Positions 1 through 9,049 of a DNA stretch of 45,526 nucleotides are shown here, in pieces (position 1 is the first letter of the stretch; every line of letters begins with the position of its first letter). The translations under genes were made by a program, and so were the position numbers. This DNA is from Gemmatimonadota bacterium (GTDB lineage: Bacteria > Gemmatimonadota > Gemmatimonadetes > Gemmatimonadales > GWC2-71-9): NCBI GenBank assembly GCA_003221005.1, contig QHTZ01000057.1, positions 1 through 45,526 of the forward strand, written 5' to 3'. The notes beneath the pieces were generated by a model. The model was not told where the DNA came from. It worked only from the letters and a program-made list of their open reading frames with translations, and did not search any database.

Positions 1-729
1 CGAGGACAACAGCAATTCGTGCCCATCCGTGCGCACCGCAACCTTCTGGTCGGTGCTCGTCGAATTGAGCTCGGACACGGCGACTGCGGGACCGAGCGGC
101 TCACCGGCGCTCGACAGGGAGACCCTGTAGATGTCTTGGTCGCCGCCGGTGGGACCCCGATTGAAGTACAACGTGGCGGTTCCTTCCCCGTCTCCTCGCA
201 CGTAATACGCCGCCTGCTCGTTCACCGCGGTATTCACGTCGGGGCCCAGGTTCACCGGGTCGCCCCAGATGTCACCGTCCGCGCCGGTGCTGATCCGCAG
301 CGACACCCAGATGTCGGAGCCGCCCTGGCCACTCGATCGGCCACTGTAGAAGAACAGCATCCGCCCGTCGTCCGAGAGAGTCGGCGCTCCCTCGTTCGTT
401 GAGGTGTTGATGGGGGCCTCGAGATTCACCGGCGTTTCCCAGGAGCACTGCAAGCACCTGCGGTGGGACACCCAGATGTCGTTTCCGCCCAGTCCACCCG
501 GTCGAGTCGAGACGAAGTACAGCGCGTGCTGATCTGGGGACAGGCCGGCGTTCATGTCGGCAGCGCTCGAGTTGACCACCGGGCCGAGGTTCACCGGCTG
601 GGACCACTCGGCGTTGTCGAAGCGGTCGGCCAAGATCGGCCTGAGCCGAGCCTGCGGCGCGACCGCCGTGTCGTTGCAGGCTAGCGCCACGAGTGTGGCG
701 CTAAGCCAGAGTATCGAGCCCTTGGTCAT
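1..729 (-). CDS. PD40 beta-propeller lipoprotein, partial at window edge
   Basis: Secreted lipoprotein made of PD40/TolB-type propeller repeats; its C-terminus lies beyond the left edge. A signal peptide ends in a lipobox (LVALAC, Cys18). Repeats of the type 'S.D...L.F.S.R.GG.GG.DIWVS' follow. Known PD40 proteins of this kind often bind peptidoglycan or carbohydrate or act as scaffolds; no enzyme motif is visible and the ligand is unknown. The ATG overlaps the stop of the upstream PD40 gene (ATGA), and an AAGGAGG ribosome site lies inside that gene's last codons, so translation is probably coupled. It is a close paralogue of the gene at 6059-7018, colinear along its whole visible length. Confidence 0.8.
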   Translation of the reverse strand, partial: MTKGSILWLSATLVALACNDTAVAPQARLRPILADRFDNAEWSQPVNLGPVVNSSAADMNAGLSPDQHALYFVSTRPGGLGGNDIWVSHRRCLQCSWETPVNLEAPINTSTNEGAPTLSDDGRMLFFYSGRSSGQGGSDIWVSLRISTGADGDIWGDPVNLGPDVNTAVNEQAAYYVRGDGEGTATLYFNRGPTGGDQDIYRVSLSSAGEPLGPAVAVSELNSTSTDQKVAVRTDGHELLLSS

Positions 730-1433
730 GGAGCCTCCTTGCCGCTCGGCGTGCGCGTTGACATGTAGATGTCCCTCCCCCCGACACCCGCCGGCCGATC
801 CGAATCGAACAATAGGATGCGGCCGTCTGGCGACAAACTGGGGGTCAGCTCACCGAACACCGAGTTCACGGCTCCAACGTTTTCAGGCGTCGACCAGGCA
901 TCGTTCGGGCTGCGTCGAGTGGACATCCAGATATCGTTGAGGCCGATCGAACCGGCGCGGTTGGACGCGAAAAAGATCTCTCGTTCATCGAAGCGGACCG
1001 TCGGGCTTACGTCATTCGCCACTGGGTCGCTGAGCTCGACAATGAGGACGGCGGGCCCAAGCGTCTGGCCGTCCCGCGTCACTGGCGCATAGTAGAGGTC
1101 ACCCGTGCCAGCAAGCGGCTGCCGATTGAAATAGATATTCCCTCGGAGGTAGTCCCCCATGTTCTCCGCCGCTGCTGTGTTTACGTCTGTCCCAAGGCGT
1201 TCGGGGACTTCCCAGCTGAAGTCGTCCTTGCGGTCGGCTCGATGCGAGACGTAGATGTCGTTGTCTCCCGCCCCACCGGGCCGAGCGCTGCTGAAGAACA
1301 GGAGGTGCTCGTCATCGGACAGCTCCGGCCCGACGTCCGAGAACGTCGAGTTAAGAACGGCGACGTTCACGGGTGTCTCCCAGGGACAATCGGCGCAGTC
1401 GCGCTGCGAGACCCAGATGTCGTTATTCCCCAC
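726..1433 (-). CDS. PD40 beta-propeller protein, 3' part of a frameshifted gene
   Basis: This frame carries most of a second PD40 propeller lipoprotein (about 235 residues), with several 'LFFSS.RPGG.GDNDIYVS'-type repeats. It lacks its own signal peptide: the N-terminus is in another frame just upstream (1439-1660). Joining the two frames at the G-run near 1433-1438 (minus strand) restores the family pattern 'SNRVGG(W)GNNDIWVS', so one base is missing relative to an intact gene. Either the gene is a recent pseudogene or the base was lost in sequencing of a homopolymer. It ends in an ATGA overlap with the next PD40 gene. Confidence 0.75.
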   Translation of the reverse strand: MGNNDIWVSQRDCADCPWETPVNVAVLNSTFSDVGPELSDDEHLLFFSSARPGGAGDNDIYVSHRADRKDDFSWEVPERLGTDVNTAAAENMGDYLRGNIYFNRQPLAGTGDLYYAPVTRDGQTLGPAVLIVELSDPVANDVSPTVRFDEREIFFASNRAGSIGLNDIWMSTRRSPNDAWSTPENVGAVNSVFGELTPSLSPDGRILLFDSDRPAGVGGRDIYMSTRTPSGKEAP

Positions 1434-1660
1434 CCCCCGACGCGGTTGGACGCGAAAAAGAGGCTGAGGCCATCTTTGGAAATGGCCGCGTGGTTATCGA
1501 TCGCCGTGGAATTGATCACTGGGCCGAGGTTCACGGGCGCAGACCACTCGGAGTTGGCAAAAAACATGGCCTGGATGCCGTACACGATCTCGTCGGACTC
1601 AGGGCCGCAGGCAATCAGCGCCACCGCGCCCAGCACGCCGGTCCAGCGTTTTGCGTTCAT
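1367..1660 (-). pseudogene. N-terminal fragment of the frameshifted PD40 lipoprotein
   Basis: The fragment begins at an ATG preceded by GAGGTGAG. It encodes a lipoprotein signal (VALIAC, Cys18), then 'SEWSAPVNLGPVINSTAID', which matches the opening of the two other PD40 lipoproteins here. After 'LFFASNRVGG' it leaves the family frame and reads nonsense to a stop at 1367. The correct continuation is in the neighbouring frame (726-1433). A GTG three codons upstream is possible but has worse spacing. Confidence 0.75.
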
Positions 1661-1704
1661 AACTCTCACCTCGCTAGAGGATCGGTGCCGTGCCCTGAAG
1701 GGCT

Positions 1705-1754
1705 GGCTCGGCGTAACCAGGCGTCTTTAAAAGACGCGCGGCTTTGGCCGAGCC
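1705..1754. terminator. Nested inverted repeat between beta-helix and PD40 genes
   Basis: Outer arms GGCTCGGC (1705-1712) and GCCGAGCC (1747-1754) enclose an inner hairpin GCGTCTTT (1721-1728) / AAAGACGC (1730-1737). It lies in the spacer after the beta-helix gene ending at 1814 and before the PD40 gene starting at 1660 (minus strand). There is no clear T-run, so it may be a factor-dependent terminator or processing site. Confidence 0.45.
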
Positions 1755-1813
1755 GGCGTTTCAACGCACGGATACGGGGCAAGATCTCCCCGCGATGGTG
1801 CTTGAGCCTTCTG

Positions 1814-3058
1814 TCAAGGACAGCTCGTCGCCCGCGTGCCTGCGATCGGCGCCGTGGCGAAGGGGGTGTAGGTCGGCGTCGCCGCTCCAGGCTCCACGAC
1901 AAGGGCGGCGGTCCCGGTGCCGGGCGGCGCTCCAACACTCGTCGGCCCGCTCGCCGAGCCCCACCAGTTGCAGCTCGCGTCGAGGGATGTCGTGATGTTC
2001 GGGGCCACCCGGAGTCCAGCGTGGGCGTTCCCCTCTATGTCGTTGAACCGCACCACCGGCGCGGACGGGGGGAAGGCACGGATGCTGCCTACCCAGATTG
2101 CCGCCGGCAGCGCGTTTGAGATGGGCACGGCGCAGTCCTGTAGAAAGCCCACGATCGAGTTCCGCTCGACGCGCCCCGTGTACAGCTCGTAACGAATGGC
2201 GGTCGTCGGGAGGCAGGAGCCACGACTGTTGCGGATCCTGTTCCCGATGACGTTGACGACCCCGGTAAAGCCGATGTTCGCGGTTTGCGTCGCGACGGGC
2301 CCGATGTCGATCGCGGCAGCCCGCCCCGGCGGATGGCATTCATCCAGATCGTTGTTGACGATATCGGCGTTGATCCCGCTACTACTAAACGCCAGGATGA
2401 ACATGCACACCCCGGTTCGGCGGATCACGTTGTCTTCGAGCGTCGCGTCCATGTCGGCCTGCAGGCTGATGCCGTATGGGCCCAGGTCACCCCCGTCGAG
2501 GAAGCTCTCCCGCACCACGAGGCGAGCCCGCCCGCCAGTCTGCGCGGCATTGTTGGCTATCCGCACCAGGCGGTTGTTGCCGGGACCGACTCCCACGGCG
2601 ACGATCGTGACGTGCTCGATGGTGACGTCCACGACACCGTTGCCGAAAACTCCGTTCACGCCCGGCTTGATCACGGTCAGATCTCGGATCGTGACGGGGC
2701 TCGGTGTAGCGACCTCGACGGCCGTGGTGGGCGCTCCCGGCGGTGCGATGATCACCGGCCCGCTCCCATCCCCGATCCCCTCGAGCGTGAGCCCCTTGTC
2801 GATCACGAGCGCTTCGGCGTAGGTGCCGGGTTTGACCTGCACGAGGCCCCCAGGCTCCACCATCTCAATCGCCTCTTTAATGGTGGCCGCGATGGCTGCG
2901 CCGTTGGCGTTGGGGTTCACCACGATCGTATGCTGCCGAGGGACGCCGCCCCGGTCGAAGCTCGGCGCGAGCGCGGCGTCCAGGCCGGCGGCGGGCTCGC
3001 CGCACGCCCAGACCAGCGCGCCCGCGAGCACGGCCATGCCCAAGACCTTCCGATTCAC
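1814..3058 (-). CDS. Right-handed beta-helix repeat lipoprotein
   Basis: Predicted outer-surface lipoprotein of about 414 residues. It has a signal peptide with lipobox (LVWAC, Cys19), then a DUF1565/NosD-like start ('GTYAEALVIDKGLTLEGIGDG') and parallel beta-helix coils rich in 'V.I..N.I...G' patterns; the tail includes 'CNWWGSASGP', common in this fold. Such proteins bind or cleave polysaccharides, but no catalytic set is recognisable. The GTG at 3058 is chosen because AGGAGG lies 6 bases upstream and the signal peptide starts there; an upstream ATG at 3103 would translate the intergenic repeat. Paralogue of 4739-6013. Its signal peptide, leader and ribosome site are nearly identical to those of the hydrolase gene ending at 3197. 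Confidence 0.85.
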   Translation of the reverse strand: MNRKVLGMAVLAGALVWACGEPAAGLDAALAPSFDRGGVPRQHTIVVNPNANGAAIAATIKEAIEMVEPGGLVQVKPGTYAEALVIDKGLTLEGIGDGSGPVIIAPPGAPTTAVEVATPSPVTIRDLTVIKPGVNGVFGNGVVDVTIEHVTIVAVGVGPGNNRLVRIANNAAQTGGRARLVVRESFLDGGDLGPYGISLQADMDATLEDNVIRRTGVCMFILAFSSSGINADIVNNDLDECHPPGRAAAIDIGPVATQTANIGFTGVVNVIGNRIRNSRGSCLPTTAIRYELYTGRVERNSIVGFLQDCAVPISNALPAAIWVGSIRAFPPSAPVVRFNDIEGNAHAGLRVAPNITTSLDASCNWWGSASGPTSVGAPPGTGTAALVVEPGAATPTYTPFATAPIAGTRATSCP

Positions 3059-3072
3059 GAGCCACCTCCTGT

Positions 3073-3112
3073 ATTTCGAAATTGCGCATTGGACATTGGA
3101 CATTGGACATTC
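3073..3112. repeat. GGACATT tandem repeat, half of a palindromic element
   Basis: ATTTCGAAATTG is followed by CATTGGACATTGGACATTGG-type tandem heptamers. It equals the right half of the fuller palindrome at 4665-4734, and both copies sit just upstream of a ribosome site plus an NRKVL signal peptide. When translated it gives the 'MSNVQC..' and 'GHWTLDIG' peptides that appear as spurious N-terminal extensions. Confidence 0.85.
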
Positions 3113-3168
3113 TGCAGTTTAGCGGCCCGTCGCTCCCGTCCCCGCGATCGGCGCCGCGGCGAACCGGC
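3113..3168 (-). pseudogene. 3'-end remnant of a beta-helix lipoprotein gene
   Basis: On the minus strand this reads 'FAAAPIAGTGATG' then a stop. That matches the last residues (FATAPIAGTGATGC) and stop-codon context of the intact beta-helix gene at 4739-6013, and similarity continues into the adjoining repeat. Nothing of the rest of that gene is present. It is a ghost left by duplication or recombination between the hydrolase gene and the next beta-helix gene. Confidence 0.7.
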
Positions 3169-3196
3169 GTCTCGCGAAAGTGCCCCGACGCCTCAG

Positions 3197-4645
3197 TCAT
3201 CGCTGCGATCGGCGTCCATCGGTGCAGCCCTGACCCTCAGGGCATGTTGCATCTCCACGCAGAATCGTCTCGGCCGACAGGACATTGGGCTCGTGCTGCA
3301 TCAAATACCTCGGCGTGAGATAGCGCGTGAAACGCAGCCCATCGGCTCCCTGCTCATCGAGCGCCGCATTGAAAAACGACACGGCCAGGATGACCGAGAG
3401 GCGCGACACCTCGCGGGCATCCTGGGTGCGAGGCACGTTACTCTCCGTGACATCGACGCCCGTGATCGTCTGGACGAGCGGTCTGATGTCCACCGGCTCG
3501 ACGAACGCATCGTAGGAGCAGTAGTCGAGCGTGCTGCCGAACGTCGCCACCGTCGGCGTGAGCAGCGTACGGACCGTCCGGTCTTCCAGGATCGCCCGCG
3601 GATTCGCGAGACGCACGCCGCCCGCCGCCTGCATTCTCGCGCACAGGGCGGAGCCGAAGCTCAGATGCTCGGCGTCCCTGACGACCACAAAGAGCCGGGA
3701 GTTGCTGGAGAGCATGTCGAAGAACGCCCGCACCACCGGCACGGGTTGCGTCTCGTCGGATGCCCCCGCCATCATCAAGATGGGCACTCGTACCGCTGCC
3801 ATCTCGGCGGGTGCGAACGTCAGACGGCCGGAGGACATGGTCATGATCGCGTCGATCCGAGACTCAATGGGGATGCCCAAGGCGCTGCTGCCGGCGACCG
3901 CTGCCATGGCGGTGAGCATCCCCCTGGAGTGACCGATCACGCCGACGCGCGCCACGTCGATTCGGCTTCCGAACCGGGCTGCGTTGAGGTTTGTGAATTC
4001 GTCGATCAGCGCGGAGACGTCGCGGACGCGGTTCTTGACGCTCGTGCCGATCGCCTCGCCACCGCACGGAGGCTGGAGCGCATCCAGGCACGCGAGAAGG
4101 GAGCTCCCGACGAGCTGATTGATGTAATCGACGAGCGCGTCGTCCTGGGAGTTGTTGGTGTGCTCCGCGCTCGCCACGACGAACCCGTGGCTCGCGATGG
4201 CTTCCGCGGTGAACGCATGATCGAGGGCGTCGGTGCCGGACCCGTGGGACCAGATCAGCAACGGAAACCGTGGTCCCCGAGCGTCAATGTCCGCCCCCTC
4301 GTGGGCCAGCGGCGAGGGAATCGTAAAAGTCAGCGGGTCGTAGGTTCCCGGGACGAGCGGGACGCCGAACAGACGCGATCGGTAGGCCGTGCGCGGCGCC
4401 GCAGTGACGCCCGCGGGGTGCGCGGGATACCACACGTGAACATCGAGCGGCCGCCGCTCGCCCGCGCTTCCCGTGTGCACAACCTGGATCATGGTGTGAC
4501 CGACGCCGTAAGGCCCTACATCCTCAGGAACTCCATCCGCCATGAGGCTCGGTCGCAACGTAGCGTCCGGTCCGGCGGCGGGCTCGCCGCACGCCCACGT
4601 CAGCGCGCCCGCGAGCACGGCGATGCTCAAGACCTTCCGATTCAT
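3197..4645 (-). CDS. Alpha/beta-hydrolase lipoprotein, PAF-acetylhydrolase/dienelactone-hydrolase-like
   Basis: Secreted lipoprotein esterase of about 482 residues. It has a signal peptide with lipobox (LTWAC, Cys19), then an alpha/beta-hydrolase fold: oxyanion-type 'WSHGSG', nucleophile elbow GHSRG (Ser240), a candidate Asp in 'GASDETQ' and His in 'DAEHLSF'. The arrangement resembles platelet-activating-factor acetylhydrolase-like and dienelactone-hydrolase-like proteins; the substrate is unknown. A start at 4645 (AGGAGGTG ribosome site) is preferred over 4732, which would translate the palindromic repeat. Signal peptide and leader are nearly identical to those of the beta-helix gene downstream. 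Confidence 0.85.
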   Translation of the reverse strand: MNRKVLSIAVLAGALTWACGEPAAGPDATLRPSLMADGVPEDVGPYGVGHTMIQVVHTGSAGERRPLDVHVWYPAHPAGVTAAPRTAYRSRLFGVPLVPGTYDPLTFTIPSPLAHEGADIDARGPRFPLLIWSHGSGTDALDHAFTAEAIASHGFVVASAEHTNNSQDDALVDYINQLVGSSLLACLDALQPPCGGEAIGTSVKNRVRDVSALIDEFTNLNAARFGSRIDVARVGVIGHSRGMLTAMAAVAGSSALGIPIESRIDAIMTMSSGRLTFAPAEMAAVRVPILMMAGASDETQPVPVVRAFFDMLSSNSRLFVVVRDAEHLSFGSALCARMQAAGGVRLANPRAILEDRTVRTLLTPTVATFGSTLDYCSYDAFVEPVDIRPLVQTITGVDVTESNVPRTQDAREVSRLSVILAVSFFNAALDEQGADGLRFTRYLTPRYLMQHEPNVLSAETILRGDATCPEGQGCTDGRRSQR

Positions 4646-4664
4646 GAGACACCTCCTGTCAAAC

Positions 4665-4734
4665 GAATGTCCAAGGTCGAATGTCCAATGCTCAATTTCG
4701 AAATTGGACATTGAGCATTGGACATTGGACATTC
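4665..4734. repeat. GGACATT palindromic repeat element
   Basis: Imperfect long palindrome centred on TTTCGAAA. The left arm is GAATGTCCAATGCTCAATTT; the right arm carries the complement with extra GGACATT heptamers. It fills the space between the beta-helix gene (stop at 4739) and the hydrolase start. It could fold into a long hairpin in RNA or act as a recombination seed. A half copy lies at 3073-3112. Confidence 0.85.
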
Positions 4735-4738
4735 TGGT

Positions 4739-6013
4739 TTAGCATCCCGTCGCCCCTGTCCCCGCGATCGGCGCCGTGGCGAACGGCGCGAACACCGGCG
4801 TCGCCGCGCCTGGCTGGACGACGAGGGCGTCCCCCGTACCGGTGCCCACCCCCGACGGCCCGCTCGCCGCGCCATACCAGTTGCAGCGCGCCTCCAGGGC
4901 CGTGGTCTGGTTCGGGCCAATGCGGAGTCCGGCCTGCGCGTTGCCCACGATGTCGTTGAACCGCACGACCACCGTGGTCGCGGGGAGCCCGCGAATGCTT
5001 CCCACCCAGATCCCGGCGGGCAGGACGCGTGCTGATGGGAACGCGCACGCCGCCACGGCACTCGGGATGCGATTGCGCTCAATGCGTCCAGAAAAGAACT
5101 CGTAGTTGATGGCGCTCGTGGTGAGACATGAGCCCCGACTGTTCCTGATCGTGTTGCCCATGATGTTCACGACGCCCGTTGCGGTCGCGGGTCCCGGCAA
5201 CGGGAGCCCACCCGCCGCTGTACCAATGAGCAACGCTCCCGCCCGTCCGAGCGGATAGCATTCGTCGAGATCGTTGCCGATAACGTCGGCATTCGTTTCG
5301 CCGCCGAGGTCGGCGCGCATGACCACATGAATGCACGCACCTCCCATATGGCGGACCACGTTGCGCTCGATCAGCGCATCCACGTCACCTGAGGGACGGA
5401 TTCCGAACATCTGGGGGAAGGGGGGAGTGCCCGAGTTGGCGAGGGGCACAGCTCCGTCCAGGAAGCTTTCCCGCACTACTAGGCGTGCCCGTCCGCCGGT
5501 CAGGCTGGCATTGTTAGCCACTGCGATCAGCTGCCCGACGCCAAGTGGCGGATTGACGGCTAGCAACGTGACGCGCTCGGCGGTGACGTCCACGACCCCG
5601 TTGCCGAGGACGCCGTTCGGACCGCTAACACGCACCGTCACATCGCGGATGAATACGGCCTCGGACGTGGCGACTTCGACCGCCGTGGTAGGCGCACCTG
5701 GGGGCGCAATGATCACCGGCTCGCTGCCGTCGCCGATCGCCTCAAGGGTCAGTCCCTTGTTGATGAGAAGCGCCTCAACATACGTCCCAGCCTTGATCTG
5801 CACCTTGCCCCCGGCCTCCACCATGTCGATGCCTTCTTGAATCGTGGCCGCGATCCCGTTGCCGCTGGCGTTCGGGTTCACCACGACCGTGTGGTGTTTG
5901 CCGACGTCCATGGCGAGGCTCGGCACGAGCCAGGCATCGGGCGCGAGCGTCGTGTCGGTACAGGCGAGCGTGGCGAGTGCTACGAACAGGGCGAACCTGC
6001 GGTTCCGCGTCAT
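4739..6013 (-). CDS. Right-handed beta-helix repeat lipoprotein (paralogue)
   Basis: Predicted lipoprotein of 424 residues: signal peptide and lipobox (LATLAC, Cys18), a beta-helix opening 'GTYVEALLINKGLTLEAIGDG', then repeated short strands and the 'CNWYGAASGP' tail motif. It aligns along its full length with the beta-helix gene at 1814-3058, including 'APPGAPTTAVEVAT' and 'ARLVVRESFLDG'. Its signal peptide differs from that paralogue, which instead shares the hydrolase signal. A GGAGGTGG ribosome site lies just before the ATG. The likely role is surface binding to a glycan or another lipoprotein; no catalytic residues can be assigned. Confidence 0.85.
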   Translation of the reverse strand: MTRNRRFALFVALATLACTDTTLAPDAWLVPSLAMDVGKHHTVVVNPNASGNGIAATIQEGIDMVEAGGKVQIKAGTYVEALLINKGLTLEAIGDGSEPVIIAPPGAPTTAVEVATSEAVFIRDVTVRVSGPNGVLGNGVVDVTAERVTLLAVNPPLGVGQLIAVANNASLTGGRARLVVRESFLDGAVPLANSGTPPFPQMFGIRPSGDVDALIERNVVRHMGGACIHVVMRADLGGETNADVIGNDLDECYPLGRAGALLIGTAAGGLPLPGPATATGVVNIMGNTIRNSRGSCLTTSAINYEFFSGRIERNRIPSAVAACAFPSARVLPAGIWVGSIRGLPATTVVVRFNDIVGNAQAGLRIGPNQTTALEARCNWYGAASGPSGVGTGTGDALVVQPGAATPVFAPFATAPIAGTGATGC

Positions 6014-6058
6014 ACCCCACCTCCATGGTTGCCATCCCGCGCCTTCAGCATGCTCGTC

Positions 6059-7018
6059 TTACGGCCCGCTCCGCCCCCGAGTCGACATCCAGAGATCGTT
6101 GCCCCCGCTCCCGCCAGGCCGGCTCGAGGTGAAGATCAGCGTCCCGCCGTCGCGCGACAGAACGGGTTGCGAGTCGACGAAAGGCGTGTTGAGCGGGGCG
6201 CCGAGATGCTCCGCGGCGGACCACGCGTCGTGGATGCCCTGGCGAGTGAACCGCCAGATGTCCAAGTCGCCGAACGTTCCCGTCCGATTGGAGGACAGCA
6301 GCAGCTCATGCCCGTCCGTGCGCACGGCCAGCTTTTGGTCGGTGCTCGTCGAATTGAGCTCGGTCAAGACCACGGCGGGGCCGAGCGGCTCACCGTCGCT
6401 CGACAAGGAGACCCTGTACATGTCTTGCGTGCCGCCGACGGGAGTCCGATTGAAGTACAACGTGGCGGTTCCTTCCCCGTCTCCTCGCACGTAATACGCC
6501 CCCTGTTCGTTCACAGCCGTATTCACGTCGGGGCCCAGGTTCACCGGGTCGCCCCAAACGTCACCGTCTGCGCCGGTGCTGATTCGCGGCGACGCGTAGA
6601 TGTCAGAGCCACCCTGGCCACCCGGACGGCCGCTGTAGAAGAACAGCATCCGCCCGTCGTCCGAGAGAGTCGGCGCTCCCTCGTTCGTGGAGGTGTTGAT
6701 GGGGGTCCCGAGGTTCACTGGCGTTTCCCAGGGGCACTGCACGCAACTGCGGTGGGAAACCCAGATGTCGTTTCCGCCCAGTCCACCCGGTCGAGTCGAG
6801 ACCAAATACAGCTCGTGCGCATCCGGGGACAGCCCGGCGTTCATGTCCAAGGCGCTCGAGTTGACCACCGGGCCGAGGTTCACCGGCTCCGACCACTCGG
6901 CGTTGTCGAACCGGTCAGCCAGGATCGGGCCGAGCCGAGCCCGCGGCGCGACGGTTGTGTCGCTACAAGCGAGCGCAGCGAGGAGCGCGGGCAACCAGAG
7001 CAGCCGATTCGTTGGCAT
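6059..7018 (-). CDS. PD40 beta-propeller lipoprotein
   Basis: Complete 319-residue member of the local PD40 family and first gene of the minus-strand cluster. The signal peptide ends in LAALAC (Cys18), followed by about six propeller segments with 'RPGGLGGNDIWVS', 'RPGGQGGSDIYAS', 'NRTGTFGDLDIW' and 'RPGGSGGNDLWMS'. It is nearly colinear with the partial gene at 1-729, indicating recent duplication. A GGGAGGTG ribosome site precedes the ATG. PD40 repeats occur in TolB and in peptidoglycan-associated proteins; no OmpA domain is present. Confidence 0.85.
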   Translation of the reverse strand: MPTNRLLWLPALLAALACSDTTVAPRARLGPILADRFDNAEWSEPVNLGPVVNSSALDMNAGLSPDAHELYLVSTRPGGLGGNDIWVSHRSCVQCPWETPVNLGTPINTSTNEGAPTLSDDGRMLFFYSGRPGGQGGSDIYASPRISTGADGDVWGDPVNLGPDVNTAVNEQGAYYVRGDGEGTATLYFNRTPVGGTQDMYRVSLSSDGEPLGPAVVLTELNSTSTDQKLAVRTDGHELLLSSNRTGTFGDLDIWRFTRQGIHDAWSAAEHLGAPLNTPFVDSQPVLSRDGGTLIFTSSRPGGSGGNDLWMSTRGRSGP

Positions 7019-7037
7019 AGCGCACCTCCCTATTTGG

Positions 7038-7043
7038 TCTATA
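7038..7043 (-). promoter_or_regulatory. Candidate -10 box (TATAGA) for the lipoprotein cluster
   Basis: On the minus strand TATAGA lies about 20 bases upstream of the first PD40 ATG and before a GGGAGGTG ribosome site. No convincing -35 box is visible at the usual spacing. A 7-bp inverted repeat AGTTCGA/TCGAACT (7075-7097) lies further upstream and could be an operator or terminator. Confidence 0.25.
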
Positions 7044-7138
7044 GCCAGATCGCTGCACCTACGTCCTGACCGTGAGTTCGAGGGATCGGGTCGAACTGGC
7101 TAACCTTAAAGGGTGCGCCCGAAACGGGCCCTCAGTAG

Positions 7139-7348
7139 CTACCCACGTGGGGGAGAAGCTCCACCGAAGACGTGTTCGAGATGGGCATCTCGGTTTCTGA
7201 AGCGAAGGTGGTGTACGAGCGGACGCCGCAGGAGTCCGACACGATGGGGACGCCGACGATCACCACCACCATCAGCGACCACGCCGGCAACCCCTTTGTG
7301 GGCGCGTTCGCGGCGATGGCCACGGCGATGGTCGGCGACGTGACCTAG
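7139..7348 (+). CDS. Possible small protein or gene fragment
   Basis: An open frame follows a TAG at 7136. The best starts are GTG 7172 or ATG 7181, giving about 55-58 residues with 'KVVYERTPQESD', 'TPTITTTISDHAG' and 'FVGAFAAMATAMVGDVT'. G/C-ending codons dominate, as in real genes here. I recognise no family. A weak GGGGGAG lies upstream of 7172. Its stop overlaps the stop of the convergent lipoprotein gene. It may be a relic of a longer gene. The rest of 7019-7138 holds only the candidate -10 box, an inverted repeat (7075-7097) and a small hairpin (7117-7129). Confidence 0.3.
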   Translation, partial: LPTWGRSSTEDVFEMGISVSEAKVVYERTPQESDTMGTPTITTTISDHAGNPFVGAFAAMATAMVGDVT

Positions 7349-7941
7349 CGCTGCTCCGCCTCCGCCCGCGCGTAATACGCGGCCCACGTCGTCGCCCGTC
7401 CTACGACCAGCGTGCGCGGCAGCGCTTCGAGCTCCACCTTCACGCTGCGGTACTCCCGGCGGGCCGACCGGAGCAGCGACTGCACCTGGCTCGCGCTCGT
7501 AGGGACGTCCGACGCGACCACCAGCCAGTAGGTCGGGGCCATGGAATCCACGATCGGGGAGGCCGGCGGCGGCGCCCGACGGCCGGCGCGCACCAGGTCG
7601 TCCGGCGAGCGCAGCACGGGCTCGAGGATCCGGGGTGGGGCGCCCACTTCCGGCTCCGGTGCTTCCATGTAATGCCAGCCCACCTGCTGCTGCGTTGGCT
7701 CGTCGTCGCGCTGCGGGAAAATGCGATCGATCGTCCCGTCCTGCTCGATCCGGAGCACGATGACATGCGCCGGCTGCGCCAGCTCGAACCGCACCTCGCT
7801 GGGCGAAACGCTCACGATCCCCGGACCGTACGCGTCGGCGGCGCCGAGCCGCGTGACCGCGAGCGGCGCCCACGAGCGGGGCGCTGGGTGCCCGCCGCAA
7901 GCGGCGACCAGCAGCAATGCCGGGGCGGTGGGCTTGCGCAT
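7345..7941 (-). CDS. Small lipoprotein, possible DUF4384-like
   Basis: 198-residue protein with a short signal peptide and lipobox (LLVAAC, Cys15). The central 'FELAQPAHVIVLRIEQDGTI' resembles the beta-rich DUF4384-type domain, in which proteins describe a variable passed to the cell surface; that assignment is tentative. The rest is low in recognisable motifs. It is divergent from era, sharing an 83-bp upstream region, and convergent with the small frame at 7139-7348. Role unknown. Confidence 0.7.
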   Translation of the reverse strand: MRKPTAPALLLVAACGGHPAPRSWAPLAVTRLGAADAYGPGIVSVSPSEVRFELAQPAHVIVLRIEQDGTIDRIFPQRDDEPTQQQVGWHYMEAPEPEVGAPPRILEPVLRSPDDLVRAGRRAPPPASPIVDSMAPTYWLVVASDVPTSASQVQSLLRSARREYRSVKVELEALPRTLVVGRATTWAAYYARAEAEQR

Positions 7942-8024
7942 GCTTCACAATGCGGCACCAGCGAGCCGGCATCAAGCCCGGGGCTGCTTGACGGCGTGGC
8001 GCCCCGCCTTTTGCTTCAGCATCT

Positions 8025-8882
8025 ATGACGAAATGCGGCACCGTGGTGCTCGCCGGCCGCCCCAACGTCGGCAAGTCCACCCTGCTCAACGCGCTCGTGG
8101 GCGAGCATCTGGCGATCGTCTCGCCCAAGCCGCAGTCCACCCGGCTGCCGGTCGTCGGCCTACTGACTCGGGGCGACACGCAGTTCATCTTCACCGACTC
8201 GCCCGGCTTGCTCGAGCCCCAGTACGCGCTGCACGAGACGATGCGCGCCGCGGCCGTGCGCGCCATCGCTGACGCCGAGGTGATCGCCTACCTGCACCCG
8301 CTGCTCGAGTTTCCCGCGCCCGACCTGCAGACAGTGGCGCGCCTCGAGAAACCGCCGCGCGCTGTCGTAGTGACGGTCTACACCAAGGCCGACGTGGTTC
8401 GACCGTCCGACCGTCCGACCGTCCGACCGTCCGACGGGGTGGTGGTCTCCGCGCTGCGGGGTGAAGGCATGGACACGCTCCTTGAGCGGCTTGCGGCGCA
8501 CCTGCCCGAGGGTCCATTTCACTACGACCCCGAGGAGATGGCGACGCAGCCGGCCCGGTTCTTCGCGGCCGAATTCATTCGCGAGGCGGCGTTCGAGCAG
8601 CTGCACGAGGAGTTGCCCTACAGCGTCGCCGTGGAGATCGATGAGTTCCGGGAGGGTGCAAGCCCGGTATATATTCGGGCGGTGGTGTGCGTCGAGCGCG
8701 ACAGCCAAAAGGGTATCGTGATCGGCGAGGGGGGTCGCACCATCAAACGGCTCGGGACCGCCGCCCGCGCCAAAATCGAAGCGTTGCTCGACACCCGCGT
8801 GTTCCTGGAGCTGCACGTCAAGGTGTTGCCGAAGTGGCGCCGCCACCAACCGTCGCTCAAGCGTCTGGGGTACGCCGGATGA
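8025..8882 (+). CDS. era: GTPase Era
   Basis: Era is a ribosome-assembly GTPase that binds the 3' end of 16S rRNA. The 285 residues show the P-loop GRPNVGKS (11-18), a G2/switch region around 'SPKPQSTR', G3 as DSPG (usually DTPG), a G4 box written TKAD (usually NKxD), and a C-terminal KH domain with '[15 protein letters not shown]' (from about 230). After TKAD an unusual '[12 protein letters not shown]' stretch is encoded by an 8-bp tandem repeat and replaces the normal variable loop before 'SALRGEG'. No strong ribosome site precedes the ATG. Its stop overlaps the Trm112-like start (ATGA). Confidence 0.93.
8401..8435. repeat. 8-bp tandem repeat (GACCGTCC) inside era
   Basis: GACCGTCC is repeated four times plus a partial copy, in frame within era, and encodes RPSD/RPTV peptides. 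The same unit occurs on both strands around 9048-9129. Confidence 0.9.
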
Positions 8883-9049
8883 GCCTTGCGCCCGACCTCC
8901 TGGAGATTCTCGTCTGCCCCAAGTGCAAGGGCCCGCTCGAGCATCGCACGGCGCCGCGGGAGGAGCTGGTATGCCATGCCTGCCGCTTGATCTACGCGGT
9001 CGAGGACGACATTCCCATCATGTTGATCGATGAGGCGAAGCATTTCTGA
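8879..9049 (+). CDS. Trm112 family zinc-binding protein (YcaR-like)
   Basis: 56-residue Trm112-like protein with two Cys pairs, CPKC (13-16) and CHAC (32-35), followed by '[17 protein letters not shown]', the family signature. In eukaryotes and archaea Trm112 activates methyltransferases; the bacterial YcaR-type role is less defined. It overlaps the end of era by 4 bp (ATGA), so expression is probably coupled, and its 3' end runs into the start of the PorV-like gene. Confidence 0.88.

Follow-up and report, generated by a model that had tools for sequence, protein, structure and literature searches.

Chimeric genes arise by ectopic or homology-facilitated illegitimate recombination, with one breakpoint in similar sequence and the other in unrelated DNA, and a partial copy of the neighbour is left behind. 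Lipoprotein genes offer a closer parallel in Mycoplasma agalactiae: neighbouring surface lipoprotein genes of the spma locus have a similar signal peptide and lipobox but different mature parts, and the vpma genes of the same species are phase-variable by site-specific recombination (PMC2824730). A literature search on signal-peptide exchange itself gave mostly engineering papers.

The window, i.e. the whole 45,526-bp stretch analysed here, is contig C40 of a Gemmatimonadota genome (2.79 Mb, 141 contigs). Six minus-strand genes, all with lipoprotein-like N-termini, form a row in the order pdB, bhB, hydrolase, bhA, pdC, pdD:

6059-7018, minus strand: pdB, a PD40 beta-propeller lipoprotein with a class II leader
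4739-6013, minus strand: bhB, a beta-helix lipoprotein, 61% identical to bhA
3197-4645, minus strand: hydrolase, 482 aa, start at 4645, with its leader in codons 1-25/28, a linker to codon 40, and the body from codon 44 (4516)
1814-3058, minus strand: bhA, a NosD/beta-helix-like lipoprotein with the shared leader and a GTG start
726-1669, minus strand: pdC, PD40, frame broken
1-729, minus strand: pdD, a PD40 lipoprotein with a class II leader, cut by the contig edge

Some peculiarities of this cluster and its relatives should be recorded. The pdC gene is broken into two frames at 1429-1442, near a C-rich run, which would make it a pseudogene unless the break is a sequencing error or a slippage site. 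A palindrome of ~84 bp lies 5' of pdC (1688-1771), with an 82% identical copy beside a PD40 array on contig C102 (L108 9146-9225), and has no convincing Rfam family. An era GTPase gene adjoins the beta-helix/PD40 cluster divergently, both here (6059-8882) and in genome G018 (L047 5858-7649), so the position of the locus is conserved. Relatives of bhA in the family are 57-59% identical to it, and beta-helix and PD40 genes occur together, without the hydrolase, in other genomes of the family. In G013 a PD40 3'-end remnant, read by eye, seems to trail a lone beta-helix gene (L044 5270-5450), and would seem to be another sign of decay and recombination in the cluster. A c-di-GMP-II-GAG riboswitch (RF03169, above gathering score) is found in two other genomes of the family, directly 5' of the beta-helix lipoprotein gene in G013 (L044 3835-3926) and, in G021, of the PD40 gene that follows it (L046 5993-6084, minus strand); these two copies are 89% identical over 122 bp, and none was found in the window. 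Nor were defence-system families found, or sigma-70 promoters, a search that is uninformative for this phylum.

The sequence-only reading placed the starts of hydrolase and bhA at 4645 and 3058, correctly (both genes lie on the minus strand), and observed that the two genes have a ribosome site and leader in common. Alignment and BLASTN bear this out: the leaders MNRKVLSIAVLAGALTWACGEPAAGPDATLRPSLMADGVP and VNRKVLGMAVLAGALVWACGEPAAGLDAALAPSFDRGGVP follow the same ribosome site, AGGAGGTG, and the leader part of hydrolase matches bhA over 117 columns (87%, E 4e-32). The extent proposed was too short, as the homology continues on the upstream side. One continuous local alignment joins 4788-4544 with 3169-2957 on the minus strand; it scores 253, whereas the best of 200 shuffles reached 36. 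It begins with the end of a beta-helix gene (~15-16 codons and the stop), crosses a palindromic spacer and the ribosome site, and goes on through the signal peptide into the first residues of the mature part. The parts of this shared block are:

4563-4788, minus strand: block copy 1, from the bhB 3' end with its stop (4739-4788) through the palindromic spacer and ribosome site to hydrolase codon 28; the local alignment extends to 4544
4665-4735, minus strand: palindrome of AATGTCC heptamers between bhB and hydrolase (dG -40.6, z -6.0)
2976-3169, minus strand: block copy 2, with a beta-helix 3' stub, a spacer missing half of the palindrome, ribosome site and bhA codons 1-28; the local alignment extends to 2957
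3121-3169, minus strand: the beta-helix 3'-end stub (FAAAPIAGTGATGR, then stop), behind the hydrolase stop and in the hydrolase frame, matching bhB residues 411-423 at 12/13 (E 0.002)

Identity between the copies is uniform, about 91%, up to a changepoint near codon 28, with 18/191 mismatches before and 17/37 after it (identity falling to 54%), a contrast matched by none of 2000 permutations (p < 0.0005). By part, 98/108 non-coding positions agree, 68/75 in codons 1-25 (the signal peptide) and 27/45 in codons 26-40; fast linker evolution could mimic part of this drop. From codon 41 hydrolase and bhA are unrelated (3/15 in the first five codons) and their folds are separate, in agreement with the earlier view of the mature proteins as unrelated. 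One 5' sequence stands before two non-homologous bodies and its homology stops sharply, the pattern of a 5'-module exchange. Each signal peptide ends in a lipobox-like cysteine pattern (...LTWAC or ...LVWAC), a sequence pattern only, with an unusual W at -2. Because of these patterns and the intact ribosome sites, both genes are probably expressed and their products exported as lipoproteins, and nothing further is implied.

The beta-helix codons of copy 1 are the genuine end of bhB (FATAPIAGTGATGC, then stop), while in copy 2 they form an orphan stub of 49 bp, nearer in sequence to the end of bhB than to that of bhA. In full, the stub's sequence is found only in bhB. It is also the sole beta-helix sequence in the hydrolase region, where no residual beta-helix body was found. 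The 49-bp stub is a fossil of the copying. The palindrome recurs at 3059-3125 without one arm (z +1.8). Palindromic AATGTCC arrays lie between genes at 4665-4735 and 3073-3112 of the window and at 14255-14322 of contig C3 (G000), and only there in this genome; such arrays, a dispersed repeat family, occur in 15/102 genomes of the family, with up to 21 matches, the reversed control pattern giving no match.

A whole-genome search with the leader peptide (NRKVL) matched only hydrolase and bhA, two further matches (E 0.3 and 0.7) being at noise level. Their leader DNAs score 153; among 1035 pairs of mostly unrelated lipoprotein-like leaders, taken from this genome and two others of the family, no score exceeds 42. 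The leader dS is 0.20 (33 codons only), against 0.97 for the bhA and bhB bodies and 0.32 for pdB and pdD, so the shared leader is younger than the divergence of the flanking beta-helix paralogues. This youth, together with its confinement to two genes, points to recent ectopic recombination, not common descent.

The hydrolase body is that of a putative PAF-acetylhydrolase/PETase-like alpha/beta hydrolase, judged from a profile match (PF03403, 34.9 bits, cutoff 20) and the motif GHSRG. Family homology starts at codon 44, with G44 in 18/18 and P45 in 17/18 relatives, whose leaders are unrelated; among candidate catalytic residues, the GHSRG serine is kept in 18/18 and His327 in 17/18, and an acid at 297 in only 7/15. 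Like the described families (PF03403, PF12740), the body carries GPYxVG, VWYPA and GHSxG; its leader and linker, by contrast, are not the family's. For the last ~90 residues (window 3197-3460), the relatives found have no counterpart. No close relative was found in 84,980 species genomes; the relatives in 102 family and 394 class genomes are only ~25-33% identical over most of the length, and the best match in plasmids is about 29%. Neither an intermediate nor an empty form of the locus was seen among the genomes compared, which include no relative from the same genus. A foreign base composition was considered and gave no signal, third-position GC being 0.82 against 0.80-0.85 in the lipoprotein neighbours.

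As the sequence-only reading noted, bhB has a different signal peptide, which turns out to be of PD40 type. Two further segments concern this second kind of sharing:

5912-5980, minus strand: PD40-type leader segment of bhB, 54/69 identical (78%), ungapped, to a PD40 gene on contig C102
4526-4570, minus strand: hydrolase linker, codons 26-40 (PDATLRPSLMADGVP), nearer to the bhB and pdD linkers than to that of bhA

The match between bhB and the C102 gene is in register, at the same distance from the start codon, and scores 63; bhB leader DNA scores 47 with pdB and 46 with pdD, above the maximum of the leader-pair null (42). Searched against the whole genome, the bhB leader finds only these three PD40 genes (E 1e-4, 7.5e-4 and 0.015), and two further family genomes have beta-helix relatives that lack this leader type. 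The hydrolase linker scores 31 with bhB, 28 with pdD and 21 with bhA, the first two exceeding the null, and a loose linker pattern C-x8-A-x-L-x-P runs through all local leaders. By these likenesses bhB, the hydrolase linker and three PD40 genes make up a second leader/linker class, an older layer. The locus appears to have seen at least two exchanges of leaders and linkers, which involve three protein folds.

We give about an even chance (roughly 0.5) to a block of ~0.2 kb, reaching to about codon 25-28, having been duplicated by ectopic recombination within the lipoprotein row. The simplest course is a single event in which the junction of bhB and hydrolase was copied to that of hydrolase and bhA; the single event and the direction towards bhA are what we infer. 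The source would be the junction where bhB is complete, as the restriction of the full stub sequence to bhB suggests. Copying into the hydrolase-bhA junction would leave the orphan bhB 3' stub behind hydrolase and supply bhA with a new ribosome site and signal peptide. On the coding side the breakpoint would lie in the linker after the lipid-anchored cysteine, a loosely conserved stretch, with the frame kept; the other breakpoint would lie in non-coding DNA. The proposal of the sequence-only reading, module exchange of an export signal between lipoproteins, gains support from the leader's restriction to two genes, its lower dS, the abrupt end and the misplaced stub; the signal peptide did move, but the exchanged unit is larger than was supposed, including the 3' end of the preceding gene.

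A point counter to copying towards bhA is that the CGEP of the signal peptide resembles the CGDP of beta-helix relatives, and the bhA linker (PSF..GGV.R) resembles theirs. This likeness would fit a beta-helix origin of the leader, yet lies within the range of unrelated lipoprotein leaders. The PSF..GG motif was set aside as proof of that origin, as it also occurs in unrelated lipoproteins of the genome. The resemblance also speaks for a body replacement, a less likely but plausible course in which unequal crossing-over between bhB and bhA would have made a third beta-helix gene, a hybrid with the leader of bhA and the tail of bhB, and the hydrolase then replaced its body, the leader passing from beta-helix to hydrolase, with the leader left in front and the tail stub behind. 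The middle gene is indeed bounded precisely by a bhA-type leader on one side and a bhB-type 3' stub, whose frame it shares, on the other, and the hydrolase would be the intruder, given sister genomes that have beta-helix and PD40 genes without it and the remoteness of its relatives. At least two events are needed for such a replacement, however, no trace of a beta-helix body is left in the hydrolase region, and the hydrolase linker is nearer to those of bhB and the PD40 genes than to bhA's.

Simple descent of one leader through all local lipoproteins, which the sequence-only reading had itself set against exchange, is refuted as far as the young block goes: only two genes carry the NRKVL leader, which is far younger than the beta-helix paralogy, and its homology ends abruptly and carries a foreign 3' stub. 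The loose linker pattern and the above-null hydrolase-bhB and hydrolase-pdD scores do favour descent, and part of the old linker layer may be due to it, but as an account of the locus it is extremely improbable. Hardly any weight goes to an assembly artefact or chance similarity of signal peptides either: the genome is fragmented, but the block copies differ at about 9-13% of sites and their longest exact shared run is 26 bp, making a collapsed assembly repeat unlikely, and chance is countered by the shuffle and leader-pair scores above. An active leader-switching (phase-variation) cassette, with one expressed leader serving alternative bodies, is very unlikely. The direct repeats flanking hydrolase would allow its deletion, and mycoplasma antigen loci are known to have surface lipoproteins with leaders in common (PMC2824730); against this, every gene comes with a full start and ribosome site of its own, copies ~9% diverged imply that exchange is not frequent, self-comparison of the window gave no inverted leader copies (the block copies are direct), and no recombinase was recognised by eye among the ORFs at 1-9000. 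The marks of a phase-variable locus, namely one leader that is expressed and bodies that are silent, together with a recombinase or inverted repeats, were not found.

A more general and rather doubtful suggestion is that Gemmatimonadota lipoprotein arrays might swap 5' expression/export modules again and again between proteins of unrelated fold, the flexible linker after the lipidated cysteine acting as a tolerant joint; this locus would then hold at least two exchanges of different age (hydrolase/bhA, PD40/bhB, perhaps the hydrolase linker) over three folds. With both edges and a fossil stub preserved, it shows that ribosome site and export signal are replaceable in one step. Should leaders commonly be exchanged at the post-cysteine linker, lipoprotein ancestry could not be inferred from signal peptides, and a genome-wide count of leader/body mismatches could serve to record how surface protein repertoires are assembled. 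What deserves a survey is the recurrence of exchange at a single locus.

What the locus has in common with spma/vpma is one leader type before different mature parts in adjoining lipoprotein genes, as stated for spma; the products there are repeat-bearing families, whereas here the folds are unrelated and the exchange is old and apparently fixed. With chimeric gene formation it shares the linker breakpoint and the partial copy of a neighbour, and in principle there is no difference, except that the path is unusually readable here, stub and spacer repeat being preserved. The kind of event is already known, and this locus is a well-preserved example of it, not a new system.
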